Below, in pieces: positions 14,859-52,710 of a stretch of DNA of 57,791 bases. Under the pieces are notes generated by a model. That model was not told the DNA's origin and searched no databases. It worked only from the letters and a program-made list of their open reading frames with translations. A program made the translations under genes and the position numbers. The DNA is from a virus, in IMG/VR virus record IMGVR_UViG_3300032116_019333, positions 1 through 57,791 of that record; one strand, given 5' to 3'. Position 1 is the first letter of the stretch. The number at the start of each line of letters is the position of its first letter.

Positions 14859-15047
14859 ATGCGCCACCCCATCGACATCGATTACGCATTCAAGGCCATC
14901 GTCGGCATCGCTTCGCCGGTGCTGGGGGTCATCACCTCCCTCCAACAGCAGGTCGAGTGGACGCTCCGGGTGGCTTCTTTGCTCGTCGGGCTGATCGTGG
15001 GAATCATGTCCCTGGTGAGCATGGCGCGGAAGATGCGAGGAAAGTGA
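14859..15047 (+). CDS. Small membrane protein, holin-like
   Basis: 62 aa with two hydrophobic stretches (about 11-27, AFKAIVGIASPVLGVITSL, and 36-54, LRVASLLVGLIVGIMSLV) and a basic C-terminus, MARKMRGK. This is the size and plan of a class II holin. It ends the late tail-region run, some 9 kb by the circle from the M15 peptidase and the other membrane protein at 56329, so the phage may have two holin-like proteins. It might equally be a small inner-membrane accessory protein. Confidence 0.55.
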   Translation: MRHPIDIDYAFKAIVGIASPVLGVITSLQQQVEWTLRVASLLVGLIVGIMSLVSMARKMRGK

Positions 15048-15060
15048 TGCGTTTGCTGGG

Positions 15061-15088
15061 GTGACATCTGCCCAGCATTCGGTATAGT
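15061..15088 (+). promoter_or_regulatory. Sigma-70-like promoter for the PRTase-DprA pair
   Basis: GTGACA (15061-15066), 16-nt spacer, TATAGT (15083-15088). The ATG at 15098 is only 9 nt past the -10 box, so the transcript would be leaderless or have a 2-3 nt leader. This gives the cargo pair its own promoter, separate from the late tail operon. Confidence 0.6.
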
Positions 15089-15097
15089 AGATTCATC

Positions 15098-16231
15098 ATG
15101 CGCAAGATCGTTGTCATCTCATCAACAGGGATCAGGAACTCTGTGACCGGGGAAATCTACGCCCCAGTTGTTGAAGCTCTCCGCTCGATCAAGGATCAGG
15201 GAAATGAGATCCTCCTTGTTTCGAACAGGACAAGACCGGACTGGCTCGACGACACTTTCGATTTTTTGCACTTCATTGAGTGCCCGAACAGGCAAAGCGG
15301 CAACGTAATACCCGAACTGATCAGCCAAAACCCAAGTCTCAATCTTTTGCACAAGGAATTCATCATTCTCGGCTCGTCTGATTATGACCTGCGAATGGCC
15401 ACAAACTCTAAGTCTCTTCTCATCCGTTGTGAATGGGCGGAACTCGGCGAGAGAATGGCCATGTATGGAGTGCCTTGGGAGGATCCAGATAGCTTACCTG
15501 CACTGATAAGCTATCTGGACGATGCGTTCCCATGGTATTTTGTGAGTTCAGGAGATTTTTTGGATGTCTATGCTCTCACTAATGCGGGAACCCACTCGGA
15601 AACCGATTTGCGAATTACCGTTCTGATCAACAGACTTAAAAAATATCTCAAGGATAGGGTTCCTGGATTTAAGTCAGGAATCACCTTGCATTTGCTTTCT
15701 AGCATTTATGCAACACCTGTGTTCGAAGAGGTCGAGTTGTGGTCTTACTATCCTTCGTCGGCATCTGACAACACGGGAGATGAAGTCATGGCGGAACTCT
15801 GCCGCCGCGCCCGAGAAATGTATAAGAAAAAGTTTAGTGATCCTGTGTTCTTGCGCCACACTTCGTCTCCTCAACGTCACATTGTTGGAGGTGATCGAAA
15901 TGATCCGACATCACAACTAGTCTCGGTGCACCTCAATCCTGCATATCGAGATAAGATCAGGGGTAAAGTAGTTGCTGTCCTCGATGATTATTTAAATAGA
16001 GGCGTATCATTCGGAGTTTCTTCTTCACTACTAATGGCCGCGGGAGCAAAGAAGGTGATCGCGGTTGCAGTCGGTAAATTCGGAGATTGTTCAAATCGTT
16101 ACGAGATTGATTTGAGGGGGAGAGACTTGTTTAGCCCCCTTGTTGCGCCGTTCGATTACCGAAGAACTTCCATGTCCGGCACGGTAGAGCAAGGGGCGCG
16201 CCTAGCTTTCAAAAAGAAATTTGCGAGCTGA
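15098..16231 (+). CDS. HAD-like plus phosphoribosyltransferase-like protein
   Basis: 377 aa. The N-terminus (RKIVVISSTGIRNSVTGEIY, then NEILLVSNRTRP) has the layout of HAD motifs I and II but lacks the DxD pair, so that domain is probably degenerate. The C-terminal part has a PRTase signature at about 289-315: VVAVLDDYLNRGVSFGVSSS, the PRPP-binding loop, followed by GAKKVIAVAVGKFG. It is 3 nt upstream of a DprA-like gene and shares its promoter. PRTase-DprA pairs belong to the nucleotide-related conflict systems discussed for the SLOG superfamily. The pair is probably defence cargo, and the reaction is unknown. Confidence 0.65.
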   Translation: MRKIVVISSTGIRNSVTGEIYAPVVEALRSIKDQGNEILLVSNRTRPDWLDDTFDFLHFIECPNRQSGNVIPELISQNPSLNLLHKEFIILGSSDYDLRMATNSKSLLIRCEWAELGERMAMYGVPWEDPDSLPALISYLDDAFPWYFVSSGDFLDVYALTNAGTHSETDLRITVLINRLKKYLKDRVPGFKSGITLHLLSSIYATPVFEEVELWSYYPSSASDNTGDEVMAELCRRAREMYKKKFSDPVFLRHTSSPQRHIVGGDRNDPTSQLVSVHLNPAYRDKIRGKVVAVLDDYLNRGVSFGVSSSLLMAAGAKKVIAVAVGKFGDCSNRYEIDLRGRDLFSPLVAPFDYRRTSMSGTVEQGARLAFKKKFAS

Positions 16232-16234
16232 ATT

Positions 16235-17164
16235 ATGGATTCAGGATTTATAACTAGAAACGAATTTCCTCCTCGGCTTCTTGAGTGGCATGGTGGACCT
16301 GAATGCTTGTGGTTTCAGGGAAATCGATCGCTATTAGATGGCACGCTCTTGGTTTCAGTTATTGGCACCCGAAGCCCGAGCAACGAAGGTATTCACCGAA
16401 CGCGGAAACTTGTCCAAACTCTTGTTAGAAATGGTGTTACCGTAGTGAGCGGAATGGCAAAAGGCGTAGATTATGTTGCTCATAGCACGACGCTTGAACT
16501 AGGGGGGCTCACAATCGCAGTGATGGGGACACCTATTGAAGGATGCTACCCTAAAGAGCATCGCGAGCTTAAGGGCTTAATCGCGGCTTCTGGTTTGGTG
16601 GTTTCCCAATTTGAACCCGGCAGTTCATCACAGCGCTACAACTTCCCAAAAAGGAATGAGACAATGGCAGCTATGTCGGTAATGACCATCGTGACTGAGG
16701 CGTCCGCCACTAGTGGAACCAGACACCAAGTCGCTGCATCGATCAAATTAGGACGGCGGGTAGGTTTTTTGGCATCCCTTGTAGCTCTGCAAATTCCTTG
16801 GATTAAAGATGCGCTACGGTCGGAATTTTGTTTCATTGTGGAATCTACTTCGCAAGTCGCGGATGTGATCGAAGGATACCTAGTTAAGCCTCCAGTAGAA
16901 GTTGCAGACTCTTCAGATTCGACGCATGCGCCAGAATCTGAGTCACATCCGATTTTCGTGGAACAACCACTCTTATTTGATCAACCGACGGATGAACTGC
17001 CCACAGTCGTAGAAAATGTCACAGACCCAAGCCACACAGACAAGCCCGACGTGAAGATTGAAGAAAGCAATCCGTCGGCAGGCATCATATCATGGATAAA
17101 GGGAATGTTCGATTGGGCGCTTGGCAATACCGGCGGCAATAGACGTAGGAATAAGCGGCGATAA
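16235..17164 (+). CDS. DprA/Smf-like SLOG protein with C-terminal amphipathic tail
   Basis: 309 aa. Residues 38-185 form the DprA Rossmann-like domain: VIGTRSPS at 42-49, VSGMAKGVDY at 71-80, AVMGTPIEGCYPKEHRE at 95-111, FPKRNETMAAMS at 137-148. The DprA winged-helix C-terminus is missing. It is replaced by an acidic, Ser/Pro-rich linker (220-280), an amphipathic helix (SWIKGMFDWALG, 286-297) and a basic end, GNRRRNKRR. This suggests a membrane-binding or regulatory tail and not a recombination mediator in transformation. It is coupled to the PRTase gene. Confidence 0.72.
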   Translation: MDSGFITRNEFPPRLLEWHGGPECLWFQGNRSLLDGTLLVSVIGTRSPSNEGIHRTRKLVQTLVRNGVTVVSGMAKGVDYVAHSTTLELGGLTIAVMGTPIEGCYPKEHRELKGLIAASGLVVSQFEPGSSSQRYNFPKRNETMAAMSVMTIVTEASATSGTRHQVAASIKLGRRVGFLASLVALQIPWIKDALRSEFCFIVESTSQVADVIEGYLVKPPVEVADSSDSTHAPESESHPIFVEQPLLFDQPTDELPTVVENVTDPSHTDKPDVKIEESNPSAGIISWIKGMFDWALGNTGGNRRRNKRR

Positions 17165-28756: not shown

Positions 28757-29791
28757 TCAATCTAATCGCGGCTTGGGAAGCGGATCGCGTACTAACTCAT
28801 ATCGAAGTGCTGAACCTTTACCATGACTCTTCACATCTTCCGACACAAGCAGATCTTCAATTTCTTCCCCGACAAGCCTACCAGTAATGCCTAAACTTTT
28901 AGCTAATAGGGTTCTCAGCTGATTGTTCTTCTCGCGGAGCTCTCTCAAGATTTTCAACTGTAATGGGCTGAAAGTCTGAGAAGCATCCTCATCGGGCGTC
29001 ATGCCTGCGACTCTGATCTGGATCTTCGGACCAAGTGAATATCCAGTATCATCCGTAACAACGATGTCATTGCCAACCGCATGGATGCTATGGTGTTTGA
29101 GTAACGCTTCACAGGATTTATCTCGAATTTGCCGCACGGCATCACCAGCCGCTTTCTCCCCATTTTCGAAATGACATTCGTTCGCAAGTTGAACGCCGCC
29201 TAGTGTGATCTTACCGCCCGCCTCCTTCTTGGCTCGGAGGCGTTCCAATACAGACCGCATTTGCGATTTTCGCCCTGTGAGTTTTCGCCCATTTATTTCA
29301 ACTCGGTCTTCGAAAAACTCTATGACAGCACCGGAAAATGGATGCACTGTCGGTTCACTTGCTTGCCCTCTTGATTCGTTATCCTTTGGAGGCCGCTTGA
29401 CCAGAGCCTCCTTGATCTTCCTTTCAAGTGGGTGATCTTCGCCAAACGGCTTTCCAACAAAGTCATCAGCTCCCTCTTTCATCAATTCCACTCCAACATG
29501 GTAGGATTCAAGATCGTTTGCAGTCATGATGATAACAGTCGTTACAGGGTGACCGAGCGGACCTCGGATCTTGTGAAGCAGGTTGCGACCATACTGTTTA
29601 TCCGCCTGCCCACCAAACCTTAACGGAATTGCCAAATCTAAAAGAATGTAATCGTAAGATTGCCGACGAAGAAACTCCTCAGCCTCTTCCTGTGAAGAAG
29701 CTGAATCAAACGTGTGATCAAGCGACTCAAGCTTCTCTCCAACAATTTGAAGGATCTGTTCATGGTCATCAATGACAAGTGCGTGTGGCAT
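28757..29791 (-). CDS. Response regulator with two winged-helix-like C-terminal domains
   Basis: 344 aa. Receiver domain at 1-125: acidic Asp8/Asp9, phospho-acceptor Asp52 in LLDLAIP, Thr90 in IIMTAND, Lys114 in FVGKPF. A linker leads to a winged-helix-like domain (about 150-260, ending DDTGYSLG like an OmpR wing) and a second HTH-like block (QLKILRELREKNNQLRTLLA onward). It reads as a DNA-binding regulator, with no toxin-like effector seen. It is third of three genes, 5 bp after the kinase, and probably takes phosphate from it. Confidence 0.82.
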   Translation of the reverse strand: MPHALVIDDHEQILQIVGEKLESLDHTFDSASSQEEAEEFLRRQSYDYILLDLAIPLRFGGQADKQYGRNLLHKIRGPLGHPVTTVIIMTANDLESYHVGVELMKEGADDFVGKPFGEDHPLERKIKEALVKRPPKDNESRGQASEPTVHPFSGAVIEFFEDRVEINGRKLTGRKSQMRSVLERLRAKKEAGGKITLGGVQLANECHFENGEKAAGDAVRQIRDKSCEALLKHHSIHAVGNDIVVTDDTGYSLGPKIQIRVAGMTPDEDASQTFSPLQLKILRELREKNNQLRTLLAKSLGITGRLVGEEIEDLLVSEDVKSHGKGSALRYELVRDPLPKPRLD

Positions 29792-29796
29792 AGTGG

Positions 29797-30903
29797 CTAT
29801 ATTGGGATTTGGATTCTCGCGGTAAGACCCGTGCTACCGTTGGGTTCTATTCTAAGGGTGCCTCCGTTTTTTTCGATATGACGACGTGCGATCGGTAAGC
29901 CGAAGCCACTTCCTGAGGGTTTTGAGCTACCTCCGGGAATGAATTCCTGAAGCTTCTTAATTTCGGATTCCTCCAAAGGTCCGCCCATATCGCAGATCAA
30001 CATCTCGAAGACACCTTCGGTAACATGCGCGGAAATAAATATCGTAGCATCTACAAAACCCGACTTCTTCTCGTGTACTTCAATAGCATTCTTTATTAGG
30101 TTTGTGATTGCCATGACAAATAGTGGACGGGAAACCGGAAATAGCAGATCGGCGTCTATTTCAATCTCGGACTTCACCAATTCGCAAAGGCCACCGCGAG
30201 CCTCGATATTCTCCCTGGCGGTTCTTTCAGCGTCAAAGACCATGGATGCAACGTTCTCTTCGCTTTTTTTAGCCTCTACGTCTCTGGCAAAATTACTAAT
30301 ATCTATTGTTAGAGACTCCATGTCCTCGATGCTTGAATTGATCCGCTTGATCTCTTCTTCGGAAGGAATCCCCCCTGCGGCAGTACTTTCGCCCATTCTG
30401 CGAACGACTTCTTTCAATGGGGTCAGGATTGTTTTGAAGTCGTGTACTACAGAGCGGAGATACTCATCGCTCTGGCGGTTCGCTAGATCGATTGCCATCC
30501 TTGTCGCATCCACCCCAAATCGAATCCGGATACCTTCAAGAATCTTCTGGAGTCCCCTGTGGCGTGATCTGGCACCGCCTCTGGAGTCTGGCATTCGGCG
30601 TGCCAGGGCGATAGCGGCCATTCGAGAAACAAACGAGTTCTGATCGGCCGCTAACCTCGGGGCAAGCCTACGAAAGAGCTTTTCTGGAAAATTCGGCAGG
30701 CTTTCAGCAAACACCATTCTAACTTCCCACTTGGGATCGCTAGATAGAATACTGACTAGGGCAAATGAATCATCTGTGGGCCTTGCCGTCATCATATCAC
30801 GGCATGCAATTTCCGCCAACATCCGGCGATCAGTCCACGGTTCGACGTCAGCCTGCCTCTCCAGGACATCACGAGTCAGTTTTTTGATTTCATCGGGTTC
30901 CAT
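29797..30903 (-). CDS. Soluble histidine kinase with HEAT-like N-terminus
   Basis: 368 aa, no membrane segment. Residues about 40-110 look like two or three HEAT-type helical repeats (DPKWEVRMVFAESLPNFPEK). The phospho-acceptor box is SVVHDFKTILTPLKEVVRRM with His154. The ATPase domain has the N box ITNLIKNAIEVHEKK (Asn272), G1 CDMGGPL (Asp305) and G2 GSGFGLPIARRH (331-342). A cytosolic sensor kinase, its signal perhaps a protein, possibly the SMC-like ATPase encoded 13 bp upstream in the same operon. Confidence 0.82.
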   Translation of the reverse strand: MEPDEIKKLTRDVLERQADVEPWTDRRMLAEIACRDMMTARPTDDSFALVSILSSDPKWEVRMVFAESLPNFPEKLFRRLAPRLAADQNSFVSRMAAIALARRMPDSRGGARSRHRGLQKILEGIRIRFGVDATRMAIDLANRQSDEYLRSVVHDFKTILTPLKEVVRRMGESTAAGGIPSEEEIKRINSSIEDMESLTIDISNFARDVEAKKSEENVASMVFDAERTARENIEARGGLCELVKSEIEIDADLLFPVSRPLFVMAITNLIKNAIEVHEKKSGFVDATIFISAHVTEGVFEMLICDMGGPLEESEIKKLQEFIPGGSSKPSGSGFGLPIARRHIEKNGGTLRIEPNGSTGLTARIQIPI

Positions 30904-30916
30904 CGAATGTGTGCTG

Positions 30917-32809
30917 TCAGTATTTGTATCTTTCCTTCCTTAGCTTGAAGGCCTCTTCCCCCCCTTCAAGAAGAGTCACAATATCATCTTTGCATGTATC
31001 CACGTCACCAATGCGAACTACCGCACCCTTCGTCCGACTCGAATCCATTACGAATACCCTGGCGGCCTCCCCGAGAACAGGAATGTTTGGGTTGTGCGTG
31101 GCGAAAATCATCTGTCGGCCTTTTGTCGCCCTTCTAATGGAACGTACGACTGTTCGATAGACATAACTATTGTCCAGATTGTCTTCTGGCTGATCGACGA
31201 CTAGCGGGTTGATACTATCGAAAAGAATGATCGGAAGAATGGCAGTGCATTTCTGCCCCGTGGACAGAGATCCTGACTCACGATATTCTCCACGTTCTTT
31301 CAGTGCTACGTATGGAGCGTCTTCAAGCGCGACAGTTTGAAGGGCGAAGAGGACATCGATCCGTGCCAGCGCGGGAAATATCTCTTCCGATTGATTTTCG
31401 TTGAGGCCGCAAGCCTTACTGAGTTTCTCGCGGTCTCCACTCTGGATAAGCTCAACCAATCTCTGCGGGGGCACAGAATCAGACACCTTTTTAGCCACCT
31501 GGATGCGCCGGGTTGACGTGTTTTTCAACAACTCTTCCAAATGTGCACGGTAAGAGCTTCTGTCGCCAAATTGTTCAATAGTTACTCTGATTTCGGGGCC
31601 GAGTGCACTGTTCAGCTCTTCTGCTATGCCGAGTCGAATATTGAACCGCGTATCAAATAATTCAGATAACTCAGCTAATTGAGAGTCACGCTTGGTTCTC
31701 ATTTCGTCCACGGTTTTTTTAAGGTCTAAGAGCTCTCTCTTTTTGAAAAGCAGTTCATTACGGCGCTTTTCGAATCCACTCCTCTCATTGGATCGGATCT
31801 GGACCTCTTTATGTTTTTCCATCAACTGCCTATACAAGGCTTCTTGCTCAGCGTGTAAATTCTCAAGAACCCCTTTGTCTGTCGTGATCCTCTCCCATCC
31901 CTTGCCAAGATTATCGAGTATTGAACGGATCTGCTCTTCAAGTGTAGCTGAAATCTGATTCAAGTATTGAATCATAGGCTCGATACACTGTTGGTTTGGG
32001 CCATGAAGAAGTTCATCATTAAACAGCATGTTTAATTCACTCTGCATCCGACCGGATAGTGACTTGGCCGTTTTTCCAGTGTCTTGAATAATGACTTTAA
32101 TCGCATCGACTGCCCGCATTTCGCGATCCCGAAGCGAGCGATGCGTTATTGCTATGTTGATTGCATCAGCGTTAGGTCCTTGGGCAACTCTCATCCCTTT
32201 GAGCTTTTCCTCAAGAACGGGCAATTCTTTGATTTCCTCCTCAAGATTTTGAATCTTCGACATTAGAGGAAGAATTGCTGTAGACGCATCATTTATGGAT
32301 TCTTGAAGAATTGAAATATCCCACTCGATTGCGCCAATCTCTCCGTTACTGAACTTGTCTAGCAGGTCCAGCTTGTAGTGGGCCGTTTCGGCAATGCTTT
32401 CCATCTGATTTTGGCTAAGTATGTCGGACCGGAAGAGATAGCCGCCCAGCACTTTGACCCCATTGATCAACTTCCCTTGGGCATCTTGAGCGACTGGTTG
32501 TTCCCCAGCACTTCTTGAGATTACATAGGTTGCCCCGTCTTTAGTTTCGACGGTCACTTCGACTCTGCCACCGCCTAAATTCGCTTCGATGATGTTCTCG
32601 ACTCTCTTTCGTAAAGGGTCTCCTTGTCGCCCAGGCATGGCGTCAATAGCGAAGCGGGTCAACTCAATGACTGTTGTCTTGCCGGCTCCGCGTGGCCCGA
32701 TGATGCAATTAAGCCCATCAAGAAATTCGATGTCTAACCCGTCGAGAAAGCCTCCGGTGATTCGAAGTCTCTTGATAAGGTGATGCGGTCGATTGGTGTT
32801 GTCGTTCAT
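30917..32809 (-). CDS. SMC/RecF-like AAA ATPase
   Basis: 630 aa. Walker A IIGPRGAGKTT (residues 36-46). A long charged coiled coil spans about 170-420 (NLEEEIKELPVLEEKLKGM, KKRELLDLKKTVDEMRTKRD). Then come ABC signature LSTGQKC, Walker B LVVDQPEDNLDN and switch ATHNPNIPVLG. This is the RecF/SMC/Rad50 plan of DNA-end or structure sensors. First gene of the minus-strand operon with the kinase and regulator, divergent from the early lytic genes. The combination matches no named system I know. Confidence 0.8.
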   Translation of the reverse strand: MNDNTNRPHHLIKRLRITGGFLDGLDIEFLDGLNCIIGPRGAGKTTVIELTRFAIDAMPGRQGDPLRKRVENIIEANLGGGRVEVTVETKDGATYVISRSAGEQPVAQDAQGKLINGVKVLGGYLFRSDILSQNQMESIAETAHYKLDLLDKFSNGEIGAIEWDISILQESINDASTAILPLMSKIQNLEEEIKELPVLEEKLKGMRVAQGPNADAINIAITHRSLRDREMRAVDAIKVIIQDTGKTAKSLSGRMQSELNMLFNDELLHGPNQQCIEPMIQYLNQISATLEEQIRSILDNLGKGWERITTDKGVLENLHAEQEALYRQLMEKHKEVQIRSNERSGFEKRRNELLFKKRELLDLKKTVDEMRTKRDSQLAELSELFDTRFNIRLGIAEELNSALGPEIRVTIEQFGDRSSYRAHLEELLKNTSTRRIQVAKKVSDSVPPQRLVELIQSGDREKLSKACGLNENQSEEIFPALARIDVLFALQTVALEDAPYVALKERGEYRESGSLSTGQKCTAILPIILFDSINPLVVDQPEDNLDNSYVYRTVVRSIRRATKGRQMIFATHNPNIPVLGEAARVFVMDSSRTKGAVVRIGDVDTCKDDIVTLLEGGEEAFKLRKERYKY

Positions 32810-37635: not shown

Positions 37636-38013
37636 ATGGCCCAACCAAAACCAAATGAAACAAGTCCGGCCTCCGCATCCGCAATCCATCGCGAGCTTCT
37701 CGCGTGTCTGATTCGAGCGGGGGAATTGAGTGTTGAATGGAAGCTCGTGCTGTGCGCGACGCATTCCGAACCCCGCCTGCCGAAATTTGCTCGGCTGGCA
37801 ATCGCGCTGGTCGCCTCACGCGCCCAGTCCAAGTGCGTCGCTGTCGCGGATAACGTGATCGACGGAATGCTGTCGCTGGTTCGCGGCGAACGTCAACGAG
37901 TGACGCGAAAGCTCCGCTCGTGCCAAGCCGACCTGGCATTTCTCGGGGCTGCCGACCGGACGGTGGCAGCCATCATCCGCAAATCCACCACCCGCGCTCG
38001 TCATGGCAACTGA
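37636..38013 (+). CDS. Hypothetical replication-region protein
   Basis: 125 aa, helical and basic, overlapping the polymerase start by 11 nt. The pattern RELLACLIRAGELSVEWKLV then repeated Arg/Lys suggests a small DNA- or protein-binding partner of the polymerase. No family recognised. Confidence 0.55.
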   Translation: MAQPKPNETSPASASAIHRELLACLIRAGELSVEWKLVLCATHSEPRLPKFARLAIALVASRAQSKCVAVADNVIDGMLSLVRGERQRVTRKLRSCQADLAFLGAADRTVAAIIRKSTTRARHGN

Positions 38014-39769
38014 TACGCTGGAAAACGCGCCAGCCGTCGCCGTGGACTTCGAGACGTTCTACGGCAAGGACTGCGACATCAAGTCACTTGGCCAGTGGCA
38101 CTACCTGAACGATCCAAGGTGTGAAATCTATCTGATGGGTATCGCCGGGGACGGCATCTCATGGGCCGGTAATCCGAAGGACTTCGACTGGAGCTTGCTC
38201 GATGGCAAGTTCATCGTCGCCCACAACCTTTCGTTTGACGGCCTCGTGATGGCGAAGCTCGCCCGCGACGGCGTGATCCCGAGCCATGTCCAGTTCGCCG
38301 GAGGCGGCTGCACGGCCAACCTGTCGGTGTATCTCGGGGCACCGAGAAACCTGGCCGGTGCTGCCCGCGAGTTGCTTGGCGTCGATGTCACCAAAGACCT
38401 GAGGACGTGGATGAAGGGCAAGACGTGGCAGGACGCAGTCGATGCCGGTCGCGCCTACGAGATGCGTGAATATGTCCTGCGGGACGCCCGGACATGCTTC
38501 GACCTATGGCAGAAGCACTCACACGAATGGCCGGCTCACGAGCGCGAACTCGCCCACCTTACGATGACCGCTGGGTGGAACGGATTTCGCATCGACCAGA
38601 CGATGACGGAGCAGGCTGCGGCATCGCTCGACCTCGTGATGTGGCAGGCCCGCAATGACATCCCGTGGGCCGATGGCGATACCGCCGTGCTTTCGATCAA
38701 GGCACTTGGCGAACACTGTCGCGCCAACTCCATCCCGCCACCACCCTCAACGTCCGAGGATGACCCGGCGTGCGCGGCATGGGAGGACAAATACGGCGAG
38801 CAGTTCCCTTGGGTGGCCGCAATGCGGAATTACCGGAAGGCGAACATGCTTCGCGAGAAGCTCCGCGTGATGACCGACCGGATCCGCCCGACCGATGGGT
38901 GCATGGGCTACGGCATGAAGTATTTCGGTGCGCACACTGGCCGCTGGAGCGGCGATGCCCGGTTCAATGTCCAAAATCTTCCACGCGGGGAATCCTATGG
39001 CGCAGACCTCCGTGGCTGCATCGTCCCTCGTCCCGGGAAGGAGTTCGTCATCTGTGACCTGTCGCAGATCGAGCCGCGTGTACTCGCCTGGCTGTGCGGT
39101 GACACGATGTTGTTAGAGCAACTCACCAATGGCGTTCCTCTCTACGAGGCGCACGCGCGCGCCACGATGGGATGGACGGGAGGCAACCTGAAAAAGGAAA
39201 ACCCCGAAATCTACGCACTGGCGAAAGCCCGTGTCCTCGGCCTCGGCTACGGGTGCGGACCCGCGAAGTTCATCGAGGTCGCCCGCACGATGGCTGGCAT
39301 TACGATCACTCCGCAGGTGGCGACACGCACGGTCGAAGCATTCCGCGGGTCGAACCGGAAGATCACCGCGCTGTGGAACCGGTTGCAGAATGACTTCCGC
39401 CGGTCGTCCGGCGGCGACTTCGTCGTCGAGCTGCCATCCGGACGCCGGTTGACTTATCGCGATGTGTCGTCGGCGAGTGGCTGGACGGCACGGGTCGAAC
39501 GCGGCGGTCGCCGCATACCATTCTACGGCGGAAAACTCTGCGAAAACCTCGTCCAGGCGGTAGCACGCGACGTGTTCGCCGAGTCCCTGTTGCGGCTGCG
39601 TAGGCTGGGAGTGGATGTCGTCTTTCACGTCCATGACGAGGCGGTGTGCGAGGTCGCTCCCGGCACCGACCCCCACGAGATCGAGCGGATCATGTCCATC
39701 ACCCCTGACTGGCTCACCGGCTGCCCGCTCGCCGCTGAAGCCGTCGTCACCACGCGCTACTGCAAATGA
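38003..39769 (+). CDS. DNA polymerase, family A, with proofreading exonuclease
   Basis: 588 aa. DEDD exonuclease at the N-terminus (VDFETFYG, Asp15 and Glu17; HNLSFDGLVM). Polymerase motif A DLSQIEPRVLAWL near 352-364, a motif B region with ARVLGLGYGCGPAKF, motif C HVHDEAVCE near 541-549. Compact phage-type polymerase that replicates the genome. Its stop overlaps the primase-helicase ATG (ATGA). Confidence 0.92.
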   Translation: MATDTLENAPAVAVDFETFYGKDCDIKSLGQWHYLNDPRCEIYLMGIAGDGISWAGNPKDFDWSLLDGKFIVAHNLSFDGLVMAKLARDGVIPSHVQFAGGGCTANLSVYLGAPRNLAGAARELLGVDVTKDLRTWMKGKTWQDAVDAGRAYEMREYVLRDARTCFDLWQKHSHEWPAHERELAHLTMTAGWNGFRIDQTMTEQAAASLDLVMWQARNDIPWADGDTAVLSIKALGEHCRANSIPPPPSTSEDDPACAAWEDKYGEQFPWVAAMRNYRKANMLREKLRVMTDRIRPTDGCMGYGMKYFGAHTGRWSGDARFNVQNLPRGESYGADLRGCIVPRPGKEFVICDLSQIEPRVLAWLCGDTMLLEQLTNGVPLYEAHARATMGWTGGNLKKENPEIYALAKARVLGLGYGCGPAKFIEVARTMAGITITPQVATRTVEAFRGSNRKITALWNRLQNDFRRSSGGDFVVELPSGRRLTYRDVSSASGWTARVERGGRRIPFYGGKLCENLVQAVARDVFAESLLRLRRLGVDVVFHVHDEAVCEVAPGTDPHEIERIMSITPDWLTGCPLAAEAVVTTRYCK

Positions 39770-41940
39770 ACGCCCCTACCACAACATTCCCCAAACTTTT
39801 CTGCCTCGAAAACCTGTCCGGCCAGCGCGTGATGCTGGAGGAGCCATGGTCTCCCCATCTCAACGGTGCCCGTGCGGTGCCCTCCGGTCTCGACAAGGAG
39901 GGATTCCGCCGATGGTGCTCCGACCCGTCCACTAGCAGCTTGTTCTTCTCCGGATACGAGGCCGCGAATGCCGCGCTTCGCCTCGGAGACCAGAACCCTC
40001 CCCAGTTCATGCACGCGCTGGTGGTGGACTACGACGCGAAGGTGGCCTCAGGCGAAATCGACGCATTCCTCAAACGTGCGAACCCGGAATACCCGCCGAA
40101 CATGGTGGCCGCCTCGTTCTCTGGCAATGCCCGCGCCGTCTGGTTGTTCTCTTCTCCGCTGCCGGTGTTCGACCGGAAGTCGCAGAAGGCGATCCTCACC
40201 CGGTTCAAGAAGGAACTGAAGCTCAAGAAGCTGCTTCCCGGACTGGACGAGGAGGCGCTGGAACGACCGTCGCAATACTACCACTGCGGCGACGGGTGGC
40301 GCGTCGTCCACGATTCGTTGATGCCCGTGGACTTGCTCCAAGCATGGGCCATCCAGGCATCGAAGGCCACGGACTGGCGCACCCTCGGTGAGGTCATCCC
40401 GATTGAGCGGGTGGCCGACGAGGTTGAGAAGCGATTCCCCGGACGCTGGCCCGGGCCATTCGAGGAAGGTGCCCGTGGCCCGCGGTTCTGGGATGAAAGC
40501 GCCGACTGCCCGGGAGCAGCCATCATCCGGCCAAGCGGCATGCAATGCTTCACAGGTCCGAAACCATTCGTCACCTGGGTCGAGATCTTCGGCAAGAAGT
40601 TCACCGACGCGTTCCGCGCCTCCACCATCGGTGCCGCGATCAACGGGACGTGGTTCGACGGACGCGACTACTGGATCCAGATCGGCGGTATCTGGAGGCT
40701 ATTCAAAAAGCCCGACATCTCACTCCATCTGCGGGTTGCTCATGCAATATCCGACGAGCGCCCCGGTGGAGCCACGGCATCGCCACTCGACATCGCGCTC
40801 GAACAAATCCACCAGCAACGGTGCCTCGATGGTGCCGCGCCGTTTGTGTTTCGCCGCGACCACCTGATCCCATTCGGCGGCAAGCGGTATCTCAACATCA
40901 GCCGGTCACGTATCATCGAGCCGATGGCCGGCACGGGCGAATGGGGCGATGGCTTCCCGTGGATCGCCGACTTCCTCGCCGGGTTGTTCGATCCGGATGA
41001 GCAACTCGACTTCTTCCTGTCGTGGTTGGCCTACGCCTACCGCCACGCGCTCGCAGGCAGGCCGAAGAACGGTCAGGCGATCTTCCTCGCCGGTGACGTG
41101 AACCAGGGGAAGACGCTCGTCTCCAACGTCCTCATCGGCGGCCTGTTCGGCGGCCACATGGATGCCTCCGATTTCCTGTTAGGCGAATCCCGCTTCAACA
41201 AGGAACTCTTCGAGGTGGGCGTGTGGGCGGTGGACGACACGGTGCCGTCGTCGGACCCGAAGAAGCAGCAGCTCTACTCGGCGATGCTCAAGAAGATCCC
41301 GGCGAACTATGCGTTCCAATACCATCCGAAGTTCCGCGACCAGATCATGCTGCCGTGGGCCGGTCGCGTTGTGATCACGTGCAATGCCGACCCGGAATCG
41401 ATCCGCATCCTGCCAGACGTCGAGATGAGCATCCTCGACAAGATCTGCTTGTTCCGCATCCGCACCGCCGAACGCAACTTCACCGATGCCGCCGACCATA
41501 TCCGTGCCGAACTTCCGGCCTTCGCCCGGTGGCTCCGCGATTACGAACTTCCCGAGCATTGCCAAGGGGATGTCCGCTTCGGTGTCCGCTGCTACCACCA
41601 CGCCGCGTTGATCGAGACTGCGCGCCAGTCGGGCAACACGGCGGGCTTCATCGAGCTTCTGGAGCGGTTCCTGCGCTCGTGGTTCTCCGACCCCGGCCAG
41701 ACCGACTGGACGGGCACAGCGACCGACCTGCTCGCGGAAATGATGGCTGACGAGTCCACCAAGCACGTCGCGGCCAAATACACGCCCGACCAGATCGGAC
41801 GCCGGCTCGGGCAACTCAAGAGCCAGGGATACCCCATCGACTATGGGCGCAACAGCGAGCGCCAGCGCACGCGGACGTGGAGCATCCAACGCAATCGAAA
41901 CCAAGAAACCCTCACAGAAGATGAATCCGATCCTTTCTAA
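39766..41940 (+). CDS. Primase-helicase
   Basis: 724 aa. N-terminal primase-like part with LVVDYDAK (DxD-like) and GNARAVWLFSS, then a helicase domain with Walker A AGDVNQGKTLVSNVL near 442-457, VDDTVPSSDPKKQ, and an arginine-rich sensor region. Overall plan matches D5-like or SF3-type primase-helicases of phages. Coupled to the polymerase and followed directly by the iteron region, the candidate origin it may act on. Confidence 0.85.
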   Translation: MNAPTTTFPKLFCLENLSGQRVMLEEPWSPHLNGARAVPSGLDKEGFRRWCSDPSTSSLFFSGYEAANAALRLGDQNPPQFMHALVVDYDAKVASGEIDAFLKRANPEYPPNMVAASFSGNARAVWLFSSPLPVFDRKSQKAILTRFKKELKLKKLLPGLDEEALERPSQYYHCGDGWRVVHDSLMPVDLLQAWAIQASKATDWRTLGEVIPIERVADEVEKRFPGRWPGPFEEGARGPRFWDESADCPGAAIIRPSGMQCFTGPKPFVTWVEIFGKKFTDAFRASTIGAAINGTWFDGRDYWIQIGGIWRLFKKPDISLHLRVAHAISDERPGGATASPLDIALEQIHQQRCLDGAAPFVFRRDHLIPFGGKRYLNISRSRIIEPMAGTGEWGDGFPWIADFLAGLFDPDEQLDFFLSWLAYAYRHALAGRPKNGQAIFLAGDVNQGKTLVSNVLIGGLFGGHMDASDFLLGESRFNKELFEVGVWAVDDTVPSSDPKKQQLYSAMLKKIPANYAFQYHPKFRDQIMLPWAGRVVITCNADPESIRILPDVEMSILDKICLFRIRTAERNFTDAADHIRAELPAFARWLRDYELPEHCQGDVRFGVRCYHHAALIETARQSGNTAGFIELLERFLRSWFSDPGQTDWTGTATDLLAEMMADESTKHVAAKYTPDQIGRRLGQLKSQGYPIDYGRNSERQRTRTWSIQRNRNQETLTEDESDPF

Positions 41941-41950
41941 CTGCTCGCGC

Positions 41951-42223
41951 GGACACGTCAACGTGTCCAAAACCGCTAGTGTCCGTGCAACGTGTCCGAA
42001 CCGTAGTCCGTTGATCCTGTTGGGTTTGCGGATTCGTCGGACACGTGGACACGTTGTGGAGCGAAAAACCATTTCATGTGTGCGTGCGTGCGCACACGCA
42101 CATGCGCGCACACGCATACATAAACACACATACTTAGTGTCCTTAGTGTCCACGTGTCCGAAACCCTTATTTTTCAAGGGGTGCAGCGTCGGACACGTTG
42201 CGGACACTATGGGCCTAGTGTCC
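41951..42223. repeat. GGACAC iteron array
   Basis: GGACAC at 41951, 42039, 42047, 42191 and 42202; GTGTCC at 41963, 41979, 41992, 42137, 42146, 42154 and 42218. Copies are irregularly spaced in both orientations, in two clusters either side of the alternating tract. Confidence 0.85.
42075..42122. repeat. Alternating purine-pyrimidine tract (Z-DNA-prone)
   Basis: 48 nt of unbroken pyrimidine-purine alternation, mostly GT/GC/AC dinucleotides and nearly self-complementary in part. Such tracts adopt left-handed Z-DNA under negative supercoiling and can ease duplex opening. Confidence 0.85.
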
Positions 42224-42232
42224 GAACATGCG

Positions 42233-42240
42233 AAGGAGGT
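42233..42240 (+). promoter_or_regulatory. Strong Shine-Dalgarno
   Basis: AAGGAGGT, 9 nt before the ATG at 42250. It stands out because nearly every other gene in the genome lacks such a site. Confidence 0.85.
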
Positions 42241-42249
42241 CGCCCTGCC

Positions 42250-42786
42250 ATGAAGGACGATTACTCCAAACGGCAATCCGCCAAGGATGCCGATTACGAA
42301 CGCCAATACCAGACGTGGGTCGATTCCATGTCTCTCGACGAACGTCGTGAAGCGGAGAAGCTCGGTCTGCTCAAGCCCTGCGTCCAACGCTACGGCAACG
42401 GCGCTCCCGACCGCGACATGGCCGACTCGCCACTGGCCAGCCACGAGCCTGACATCGCCGCGCTGGTGGACCATGAGGCCGATCTCAAAACCCCTCAGAC
42501 CCGTGAAGTCGCAGATGTGCTTCGCCACTTCGTTGCCGACCTACTCTCCGAAGGCAACACGAGGCTGACAGTGGAGTGCCTGGCCGTGGCTCTTGGCCTC
42601 AGCGCCTACGACGGCGAGACCATGACCGACATCGCCAAACGCCACGGCATCACCCGTGCGGCAGTGTCGAAGAGGTGCGTTGACATCACCGAAAGGCTGA
42701 ATCTTCCACCTTCAAGGGCCATGCGAAGCACCCGAGCACGCAGGATATACCAGAAGGCACAACTCAAACGAAAACGCCAACCCTGA
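42250..42786 (+). CDS. HTH protein with sigma region-4-like end
   Basis: 178 aa. Charged helical N-terminus, then a helix-turn-helix (MTDIAKRHGITRAAVSKRCVDI) and a basic C-terminus (RSTRARRIYQKAQLKRKRQP). Probably a transcription regulator bound near the iteron region, which lies immediately upstream. It is the only gene in the window with a near-perfect Shine-Dalgarno. Confidence 0.7.
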   Translation: MKDDYSKRQSAKDADYERQYQTWVDSMSLDERREAEKLGLLKPCVQRYGNGAPDRDMADSPLASHEPDIAALVDHEADLKTPQTREVADVLRHFVADLLSEGNTRLTVECLAVALGLSAYDGETMTDIAKRHGITRAAVSKRCVDITERLNLPPSRAMRSTRARRIYQKAQLKRKRQP

Positions 42787-42788
42787 CC

Positions 42789-43394
42789 ATGAACACGCTC
42801 GCCATCAATGACCCGAAATTCACGATTACCCCCACCGGTATCGACTTCCATCACGACCTCACCTTCGAGGAGTGGGACGAACTCGGAACCAAGCTCACAC
42901 CGGTCGGCAAGTCCATCGGGTTCATCATCGGCGACTGGATCAACTACGGCCAAAAAAACTACGGCGAGAAATACGACGAGGCGGTCGCCCGCACTGGCAT
43001 GGACTACGGCTATCTCCGCAACATCGCCTACGTCGCCCGCAAAGTGGACTTGTCATGTCGCCATGACAACCTCGGCTTCGAGCACCACGCTGTCGTCGCG
43101 AAGCTCAAGACCGAGGAGGAGAAAAAGCACTGGCTCGACTTGGCCGAAGAGCACGACCTCAGCGTTCGTCGCCTGCGCAAGTCGATTAACTTCGGTCGTC
43201 TCGCCACCGATGACGAAGTCCAGGGCGATCCCGCCGACCGCGGCCATGTGACCTATCTCGCACTACTCAATCGCATTCGCCGCTGGTGGGCGCGTGAGAC
43301 TCAAAAGGCACCCGTCGATGAATGGGACGAGGACCGCCGCCAGGGACTCAAGAAAGACTTCAAGCTGATCCTCGACATTTACGAGGCGCTTTGA
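42789..43394 (+). CDS. Hypothetical protein, possible DNA-binding (ParB/KorB-like look)
   Basis: 201 aa, starting 2 nt after the previous stop. It has LTFEEWDELGTKLTPVGKSI, then HHAVVAKLKTEEEKKHWLDL and a possible HTH region at LAEEHDLSVRRLRKSI. The arrangement reminds me of plasmid/phage regulators, but I cannot name the family. It contains copy 2 of the 22-bp dyad site, encoding DLSCRHDN. Confidence 0.6.
   Translation: MNTLAINDPKFTITPTGIDFHHDLTFEEWDELGTKLTPVGKSIGFIIGDWINYGQKNYGEKYDEAVARTGMDYGYLRNIAYVARKVDLSCRHDNLGFEHHAVVAKLKTEEEKKHWLDLAEEHDLSVRRLRKSINFGRLATDDEVQGDPADRGHVTYLALLNRIRRWWARETQKAPVDEWDEDRRQGLKKDFKLILDIYEAL
43048..43069. repeat. 22-bp site with dyad symmetry, copy 2
   Basis: Exact reverse complement of 17452-17473: TTGTCATGTCGCCATGACAA at 43050-43069 plus two flanking bases. 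Opposite orientation to copy 1, 25.6 kb away. Confidence 0.75.
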
Positions 43395-50542: not shown

Positions 50543-51199
50543 ATGACGGAAGATTCTCCCAAAGCCCGCACCCTAGCCAACGGCATCGAAGTCTGGTGTT
50601 CTTTCGACAAGCTCGTGCCGGTCGGTGAACTGAAACCGAACCCGCGCAACCCGAACACCCACCCGCAGCGGCAGATTGAGCTGCTCGCCAAAAACATCCG
50701 CTATTTCGGATGGCGACAGACGATCACAGTTTCCAATCTCACCGGCCTGATCGTATCGGGTCACGGTCGCCTGATGGCAGCCAAGCACCTCGGAGCAGAG
50801 GTCGTGCCAGTGGACTATCAGGACTTCGCCAGCGAGAACGATGAACTTGCGGTGTTGGTTGCGGACAACCGGTTGGCCGAACTTTCCTCGGTTGATCTCA
50901 ACGAACTCGAAAAGATTGCCAGCGAGTGGAAGGCCGCTGATTTCGACACGATCCTCGCCGGTTTCGAGCCTGCCGATCTCGAAGGATTGTTGAATCCCGG
51001 CGGCGATGACGATGAAGAGGATGACGATGACCGCCACGACAAGGAACTCGACAAGAGTGATGTCACTGTCGCGGTCGGCCTCTATCGGTTCCGCATCACC
51101 CAGGAAGAGTTCATCGCGTGGTGCGACCGCGTGAAACAAGACGCCGGTTTCGACAAGGAAAGCGTGCTCAACGAAATCCGCAGCCGCCTCGTAATATGA
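50543..51199 (+). CDS. ParB-like protein 1
   Basis: 218 aa. ParB/Sulfiredoxin-type domain: LVPVGELKPNPRNPNTHPQR and LIVSGHGRLMAAKHLGAEVV. An acidic linker (GGDDDEEDDDDRHDKELDKS) and a short helical C-terminus follow. Phages often encode such proteins next to terminase or methyltransferase genes. GTTGAC box at 50521-50526 (with the previous stop) 21 nt before the ATG; the end overlaps the next gene's ATG. Confidence 0.78.
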   Translation: MTEDSPKARTLANGIEVWCSFDKLVPVGELKPNPRNPNTHPQRQIELLAKNIRYFGWRQTITVSNLTGLIVSGHGRLMAAKHLGAEVVPVDYQDFASENDELAVLVADNRLAELSSVDLNELEKIASEWKAADFDTILAGFEPADLEGLLNPGGDDDEEDDDDRHDKELDKSDVTVAVGLYRFRITQEEFIAWCDRVKQDAGFDKESVLNEIRSRLVI

Positions 51200-52710
51200 A
51201 TATCACACTCGAACCTATCGACGCTGTTCGACCATCAACTTACAACCCCCGGTCGGCGGTGCCGGAGCGTCTAGACTTGATTGAGCTATCTCTTCGCAAG
51301 CTCGGCTTCATTGCTCCGATCTTCGCGGACTCGGACGGTGAAATCCTTTCTGGCCACCAGCGCCACCTTGTTGCATCGCGTATGGGTGCCACGCACGTCC
51401 CGGTATCCCGAACCAAGGCGCTCGACCTCGATCAACGCAAGGCGCTCAACATCGTGTTCAACCGGGCGACCAACGATTTCGATTTCAATAGCACACCCGG
51501 ACGCGTCACTAGCGAGTTGCAATCACTAGACATTGAAGCACTCGCCGCCCGCATCCCCGACAAGGAGGTCGGCAGCGATGGTTTTCTGCGATGCCTCAAG
51601 CCCGCGGAAGTCGCGGTCAAGGATCTCTGCCGTGTAAACTCGGGCCACTGGATCCAGTATGCCCGCAACCTCGCCCGCACGCTGCATCGCCACGGTATTC
51701 TCATGCCCATCGTCTGCCGCGAGGATCTAACAGTCATCAACGGCATCGGTCGTCTGGAAATGCTGGCGGAAAAAGGTGCTGTATTCGCTCCGGTCGTATT
51801 CGTCACCGACGAGGAAGCGGAGTTTGCCCGGGCGATGATGAACCTGCTGTCGATGGACTTCGACATCCACACGCGCTACGCCGACATGCTGCGCTTCAAT
51901 TCGTTTCGGCGAGCACGCCGCGTCAGGCGCGAGCTTGGCAACGGCTTCATCTTTGCCACGCACGGCGCAAAGCCATGCAAGGATTTCGACATCGGCAAAC
52001 CCGCCGACAAGGCACGGTGGGTGAAGGAACACGGCACGACCATTCTTGACTTCGGTGCCGGTCACCTGACGGAAACATTCCTGCTGCGCCAGACCGGGAT
52101 CGATTGCACTCCGTTCGAGCCGTATCGACTCGGACCAGGGGGCATCAACAAAGCGGAGAGTTTGGAACTCACCCGTGCATTCCTCGCCGAAGTTGCGGAG
52201 GGCAAGGAGTGGACGAGCATCTTCATTGCAAGTGTGCTGAACTCCGTGCCGTTCCGTGAAGACCGGGAGCACATCGCCTGTCTTTGCGCCGCCCTGTGTA
52301 AGCCGTTCACCAAGGTCTATGCCTGCGCGTCCTCGGCGGGCGAATCCGGCTGGCGGCAGGTCAACGGGAAGGCGTTCATGAACGAATCCAACGCGGGAAA
52401 TATTGCCTTCCGCCTCGATTACGAACCGGGAATCCGCATTGGCGACTTTCAGGACAAACCCAAGGTTCAGAAGTACCACACCGTTGCCGAGTTCAAGGAT
52501 CTCTTCGGCACGTTCTTCCGCTCGGTGCAGGTCGATGAGTTCTCCAACAACATCAACGCGGCGTGCGCGGCAGCTCGCCCGGTCGATCCTGCCCGATTGC
52601 GAAAAGCTATCGAATTTGAATTCGATCTGCCGTATCCGGACGGCACCCGTATGGATTTCGTGAAATGCGCCATGGACTCTTTCAGCAAACGTCTTCAGAT
52701 TACCCTATGA
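51196..52710 (+). CDS. Tandem ParB-like domains fused to methyltransferase fold
   Basis: 504 aa. First ParB-like domain about 1-100 (PTYNPRSAVPE-like start, ILSGHQRHLVASRMGATHVP). A second about 150-250 (HGILMPIVCREDLTVINGIG, APVVFVTDEEAEFARAMMN). From about 270 a SAM-dependent methyltransferase-like part with DFGAGHLTETFLLRQTG. The fusion may mark or bind phage DNA before packaging. Its stop overlaps the HAD gene start (ATGA). Confidence 0.7.
   Translation: MNITLEPIDAVRPSTYNPRSAVPERLDLIELSLRKLGFIAPIFADSDGEILSGHQRHLVASRMGATHVPVSRTKALDLDQRKALNIVFNRATNDFDFNSTPGRVTSELQSLDIEALAARIPDKEVGSDGFLRCLKPAEVAVKDLCRVNSGHWIQYARNLARTLHRHGILMPIVCREDLTVINGIGRLEMLAEKGAVFAPVVFVTDEEAEFARAMMNLLSMDFDIHTRYADMLRFNSFRRARRVRRELGNGFIFATHGAKPCKDFDIGKPADKARWVKEHGTTILDFGAGHLTETFLLRQTGIDCTPFEPYRLGPGGINKAESLELTRAFLAEVAEGKEWTSIFIASVLNSVPFREDREHIACLCAALCKPFTKVYACASSAGESGWRQVNGKAFMNESNAGNIAFRLDYEPGIRIGDFQDKPKVQKYHTVAEFKDLFGTFFRSVQVDEFSNNINAACAAARPVDPARLRKAIEFEFDLPYPDGTRMDFVKCAMDSFSKRLQITL

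Follow-up and report, generated by a model that had tools for sequence, protein, structure and literature searches.

Genetic organization of the locus

The DNA region described here, an array of short repeats (iterons) at positions 41951–42223, was identified in the IMG/VR virus record IMGVR_UViG_3300032116_019333, which was analyzed over its entire length of 57,791 bases (hereafter, the window). Since the window encodes terminase, portal, protease, capsid and tape-measure proteins, it represents a tailed phage and not a satellite. Close relatives of its primase were found in Akkermansia (L093, 91%) and in further Verrucomicrobiota and Kiritimatiellota genomes, which suggests that the host is probably a member of the Verrucomicrobiota group. 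The array lies directly downstream of a primase-helicase gene (39766–41940, + strand), whose product is the proposed initiator, and very probably constitutes the replication origin of this phage. The preceding gene (38003–39769, + strand; PF00476, E 9.5e-21; phrog_17) encodes a family A DNA polymerase, proposed to be the replicative polymerase of the module. Searches of cultured phages with the nucleotide sequence of region 41900–42300 and with the primase protein gave no match, and no close cultured phage was found. Rfam and tRNA searches also found nothing.

The array comprises twelve GGACAC/GTGTCC hexamers within 273 bp, between the stop codon of the primase-helicase gene (41940) and the next ATG (42250); the first iteron starts 11 nt past the stop codon and the last ends 26 nt ahead of the ATG. 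Five hexamers are on the + strand and seven on the − strand, in the order + − − − + + / core / − − − + + −, with the following gaps in bases (> denotes GGACAC): > 6 < 10 < 7 < 41 > 2 > 84 < 3 < 2 < 31 > 5 > 10 <. The left outer iterons (41951–41956, +; 41963–41968, −; 41979–41984, −; 41992–41997, −), the gaps between which (6, 10 and 7) are the same in L002 and L011, are separated by a 41-bp spacer (41998–42038), a length that recurs in relatives, from the left inner pair (42039–42044 and 42047–42052, both +). An 84-bp core (42053–42136; 83 bp in L059 and 81 bp in L002, L011 and L093) is followed by the right inner triplet (42137–42142, 42146–42151 and 42154–42159, all −), a 31-bp spacer (42160–42190; also 31 bp in L093, L011, L038, L004 and L005) and the right outer iterons (42191–42196, +; 42202–42207, +; 42218–42223, −). 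The 31-bp spacer carries a small dyad, CCCTT (42164–42168)/AAGGG (42176–42180). A conserved hairpin at this site is not claimed, as it is strong in L011 and L038 and weak or absent (not significant) in most relatives.

Overall, the window shows no enrichment of the hexamer (38 copies of GGACAC versus 30 expected); it is its clustering that is exceptional, with a log10 expectation of about −11 once all 6-mers and positions are corrected for. The hexamers also make up two perfect inverted repeats, with 16-nt arms at 42037–42052/42146–42161 and 13-nt arms at 41987–41999/42189–42201. Thus, the structural claims of the initial annotation of this region, i.e. (i) twelve iterons flanking a core, (ii) two strong inverted repeats, (iii) a position directly after the primase-helicase gene and (iv) a 48-nt alternating purine-pyrimidine tract in the core, were all confirmed, the last at exactly 48 nt.

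Conservation of the array layout among related loci

Relatives of the locus were gathered from viral contigs and genomes, mostly by retrieval via the primase-helicase, so that the association of arrays with this gene is partly by construction. Arrays adjoining the primase gene were composed of GGACAC (L002, L003, L004, L005, L011 and L093), TGACAC (L006, L014, L017, L040 and L042), TGACAT (L047, L100 and L103), TGACGT (L036, L044 and L101) or TGACGC (L096, L097 and L098), or of hexamers seen in this position at a single locus: GGCACT (L009), GTGACA (L094), CTGCGA (L031) and TGGTGA (L070). The letter sets among relatives also include GCGTCA, ACTGCG and GTTAGG. The array accompanies the primase family regardless of which gene comes next, and in distant relatives it adjoins no conserved gene.

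The spacing, in contrast to the letters, is nearly constant. With some sites counted with one mismatch, the 41-bp spacer is exact in 12 loci representing five hexamers (the window, L093, L002, L011, L003, L038, L014, L017, L047, L103, L044 and L101); in L094 and L059 it measures 40 bp. A search based on geometry only, in which any hexamer was allowed, revealed cassettes of at least six sites in 25 of 83 loci, compared with none of 83 shuffled controls, the 25 loci not being independent cases since some are near-identical (L014/L017, L059/L064/L065, L074–L076 and L085/L087). A distant layout compared in full was that of L059, whose primase is 36% identical and whose array, located 2.4 kb past the primase gene, is built of GGTAAC. 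Its geometry (left, 40<, 53<, 70<, 80>; pair gap, 2; core, 83; gap, 3; right, 3<, 40>, 60>, 70<) lies within 0–2 bp of that of the window (left, 41<, 54<, 70<, 82>; pair gap, 2; core, 84; gap, 3; right, 2<, 39>, 50>, 66<) at most positions.

Comparison with known replication origins

By analogy of layout, the array may be classed with the origins of the Sfi21/PICI type (PICI – phage-inducible chromosomal island). It lies immediately 3′ of a primase-helicase/Rep gene, 11 nt past its stop codon, and its short iterons, six per side and of both orientations, form two sets around an 84-bp core. Its spacer of 41 bp is close to those of Sfi21 (39 bp, counted with 5-mers), EcCICFT073 (40 bp) and P4 (35 bp), and the putative initiator combines a predicted SF3/D5-type helicase fold with a C-terminal winged helix, i.e. 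a helicase with a putative C-terminal DNA-binding domain. An origin of the iteron-plasmid type (RepA/RepE/TrfA) was also considered and rejected, because the 6-bp sites occur in both orientations and do not form a tandem 17–22 bp repeat family (DnaA boxes were not searched for).

The annotated origin of the Streptococcus thermophilus phage Sfi21 (NC_000872; 302-bp non-coding region), which is the basis of the phage-encoded resistance (PER) element, is likewise located directly 3′ of a primase gene and contains short sites (GTAAC) in both orientations: < 3 > 18 > 39 < 3 < 71 > 3 > 41 < 8 > 1 < 9 >. Inner pairs surround a core of approximately 70–80 bp, the left spacer measures 39 bp and the right one about 41 bp, the latter with AACCTT...AAGGGGTT. 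Sfi21 differs in its GTAAC letters, its Bacillota host, the arrangement of its replication genes and its core, which is wholly A+T-rich (11% GC) and contains no long alternating tract.

The rep-ori regions of PICIs, including the Staphylococcus aureus pathogenicity islands (SaPIs), represented by EcCICFT073 and SaPIbov1, share with the window the position immediately 3′ of the primase/Rep gene, the two iteron sets in both orientations and a 40-bp spacer. They belong to satellites, not to a whole phage, and an A+T-rich region rather than a Z-DNA-prone tract has been described for them. The EcCICFT073 origin (GGTAGA: < 3 < 40 > 16 < 5 < 3 < 25 > 5 > 16 < 40 > 3 >) further differs in its 16-bp core and in having two 40-bp spacers within an almost palindromic layout. 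Plasmid maintenance directed by this origin required rep and was reduced by ori deletion (PMC6092414). Comparison of the window primase with a PICI primase using hhalign gave an E-value of 5e-4 at a probability of only 30%, and direct homology is not claimed.

Phage P4, with alpha protein and ori1/crr, has a primase initiator and a 35-bp spacer among 8-bp type 1 iterons that occur in both orientations (ori1: < 2 < 3 < 14 > 35 < 2 <); unlike the window, it depends on two cis regions, ori1 and crr, that lie apart, one being remote from the alpha gene. The Cch2/CCPol system of the staphylococcal cassette chromosome mec (SCCmec) resembles the window in possessing a D5-type helicase and a family A polymerase. 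Both SaPI Rep and SCCmec Cch2 use their C-terminal domains to bind short repeats located 3′ of the respective genes (PMC7581432), as is proposed here for the window initiator. The differences are that SCCmec has only three 5-nt iterons, that its priming is performed by the polymerase and a partner protein, and that it is a chromosomal cassette.

Identification of the putative initiator

The primase-helicase has a primase-like N-terminus, an SF3/D5-type AAA+ helicase and a C-terminal winged helix (residues ~646–708). It matches PHROG 1156 (DNA primase); DUF5906 was detected in all 14 primase family members examined, the window protein falling just below the cut-off. The primase profile retrieved no PDB sequence. 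Foldseek analysis of the structural model identified the C-terminal region of NrS-1 PrimPol (E 9e-13) as the nearest solved structure, as well as pox D5/E5. The winged helix, the core of which has a predicted local distance difference test score (pLDDT) of about 90–95, is present in both AlphaFold 2 (AF2) models.

The initiator is likely to be this primase-helicase, reading the hexamers through its winged helix. The gene occurs in all the loci, which is partly due to most of them having been collected with it. Where the hexamers could be aligned (23 loci), the recognition helix (residues 672–686) diverged in step with the hexamer when divergence of the helicase was controlled for (partial r 0.34, a value reached in 0 of 2000 permutations); the wing alone showed no covariation with the hexamer.

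An alternative is that the hexamers form a dense operator through which the product of the adjacent gene (42250–42786, + strand) controls its own operon, by either repression or activation. This gene and its Shine-Dalgarno-like site AAGGAGG (42233–42239, +; 10 nt ahead of the ATG) directly follow the array, and homologs of the gene come after the array in many Verrucomicrobiota relatives. The protein had been annotated as a helix-turn-helix (HTH) protein; a weak Sigma70_r4/MarR-like HTH match was indeed obtained, but the Pfam hits behind it are sub-threshold. The Shine-Dalgarno site, initially described as the only strong one, is the only + strand copy of AAGGAGG outside long open reading frames (ORFs; checked against the ORF list), but one of 14 in the window. 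Comparison of relatives speaks against the operator as the main function: homologs that are 80% (L019/L113), 71% (L115), 70% (L021/L116) and 66% (L114) identical occur without a GGACAC cluster, whereas L006, with a homolog only 47% identical, has a TGACAC array, and L036, L059, L070, L085, L096–L098 and L100 contain arrays without any HTH homolog. Moreover, a scan of 41500–42800 revealed no sigma-70 promoter-like site and no terminator, and twelve sites at a fixed 41/84/31 spacing would seem to exceed the needs of an autoregulated operator. The operator hypothesis is thus very unlikely, and the HTH protein is probably a neighbor and not the main binder of the array.

The HTH gene and the gene at 42789 form a conserved pair, which is found without a GGACAC array in L113–L116 (and L019 and L021).

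A role of the origin as an additional regulatory region, in which the initiator bound to the right outer iterons (42191–42223) would silence the next gene once replication begins, is conceivable, although we consider it rather unlikely. The last iteron ends 26 nt ahead of the ATG, and upstream transcription entering the next gene must traverse the array; on the other hand, the arrays of distant relatives have no conserved neighboring gene. Finally, the phage encodes a ParB-like/methyltransferase protein, for which the array might serve as a parS-like partition site. This appears extremely improbable, since 9 kb separate the array from the ParB-like gene, whereas arrays are found beside or within a few kb of the primase gene, and since the layout matches that of origins. 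The protein (51118–52710) has matches both to ParB-like proteins of partition systems and to a family of phage DNA methyltransferases.

As judged from sequence comparisons, the region is best read as a replication origin, the first of the two readings offered by the initial annotation; it would belong to a Verrucomicrobiota tailed phage and be recognized by the primase-helicase encoded immediately upstream. The origin reading is strongly supported because the geometry is fixed while the letters change across the primase-helicase family, and because annotated or tested origins have a similar layout; the strongest support comes from the shuffled geometry control, from the comparison of HTH homologs and from the agreement with origins that were annotated independently. 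Several observations weigh against it. No array was detectable near the primase gene of L012, L013 and L030, among others, and some distant members have theirs 1.1–4 kb from this gene. The cumulative skew, which had been suggested as a check, has no GC inflection or minimum at the array (~42 kb). The covariation with the recognition helix is modest, and supportive rather than decisive, because a weak signal (p 0.03) was obtained for the N-terminal domain as well.

According to the proposed mechanism, the C-terminal winged helix of the primase-helicase would bind the hexamers, and the six sites flanking the core on either side would load two helicase rings facing one another. The rings would then open the A+T-rich stretch at the right end of the core, the primase domain would synthesize primers, and the phage family A polymerase would extend them. 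The least certain step concerns the alternating tract beside the melting site, which probably absorbs or stores superhelical stress, or else determines in which direction opening proceeds.

This origin layout is thus found in a whole Verrucomicrobiota tailed phage and in distant viral contigs, with near-constant spacing and many letter sets, and the annotated Sfi21 origin fits it too. The family offers a natural data set for the joint change of specificity of an initiator and a dozen dispersed sites, and the spacing rule may permit origins to be found in uncultured phages without knowledge of the motif.

The primase gene is N-terminally longer in eight loci (L014:4506–5000, L017:4608–4960, L009:817–1150, L042:2068–2445, L044:4554–4981, L047:4662–4964, L101:4073–4390 and L103:5614–6082), and the extension is HTH-like in those that were read. 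A second repeat set, consisting of short motifs that mostly occur in both orientations (CAATGCA, GGGGACA, GGTATGCA, GAGGTA, GGCTACA, GGTATCA and AGGTGC), is densely packed into its coding DNA. The L014 and L017 primases are 66% identical in the extension and 96% elsewhere, as if HTH and repeats had been swapped jointly.

The core and its alternating tract

The core (50% GC) contains two elements: a perfect 48-nt alternating purine-pyrimidine, i.e. Z-DNA-prone, tract (42075–42122) and an A+T-rich 21-nt right end (42116–42136; ATACATAAACACACATACTTA), the proposed melting site. An A+T-rich right end recurs across relatives. The tract is kept in six of them (L093, with a 49-nt run, L002, L011, L003, L038 and L031), and on these grounds it represents a core variant that recurs next to an A+T-rich end, itself recurrent. 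The tract described in the initial annotation is genuine, but it is not shared by the whole family, the cores of most relatives being A+T-rich or ordinary at this site.

Because it recurs in six relatives with diverged cores, the tract may be functional. It is, however, nearly as plausible that it is incidental, a drifting low-complexity spacer that needs only to melt easily and contains no Z-DNA element. The cores of L004, L005, L094 and many other relatives are ordinary or A+T-rich and lack the tract, and alternation tracks locus GC (Spearman 0.49, p 0.012), and may thus mirror composition. Such drift is harder to reconcile with the length of the run in the window (48 nt, the next longest being 14 nt) and with the retention of 41–47 of 47 alternating steps in the six relatives despite a pairwise core identity of only 45–78% among tract-bearing loci. 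Furthermore, L031 is distant from the other carriers in the primase tree, and three gains or losses of the tract are required.

More speculatively, and with a rather low probability in our estimation, the unwinding region may have gained, in one branch of the origin family, a Z-DNA-forming element that cooperates with the initiator, and the wider family would then represent a code of constant geometry, with letters free to change along with the recognition helix of the initiator. Binding of the initiator on either side would flip the tract into the left-handed form, absorbing or releasing twist and forcing the adjacent A+T-rich end open. With a Z-DNA-prone tract beside a probable melting site, the long-discussed role of left-handed DNA in origins becomes directly testable.

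The C-terminal winged helix was also compared with Z-alpha. Using VIA-align, the best Z score of the domain was 8.0, with many ties, Z-alpha among them; against the Z-alpha fold the score was 6.8, amid many tied winged helices. The positions of the Asn and Tyr residues with which Z-alpha reads Z-DNA seem to be Gly in the window protein (judged by eye, without formal alignment). Foldseek analysis of the domain alone gave no hit at E≤0.001 and generic winged helices only; in view of these results, assignment to a specific winged-helix family was abandoned.

In the distant cores of L082 (10739), L085 (8328) and L087 (8331), runs of CGG repeats occupy the left part, in place of the tract, and are followed by an A+T-rich end.

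Other features of the window

Two regions depart from the overall GC content of the genome (57%). A cluster on the − strand (28757–32809; GC about 0.48) encodes an AAA/SMC-like ATPase and a HATPase/HEAT-repeat protein and is possibly inserted cargo. The second low-GC stretch (0.48) spans positions 15001–17000.
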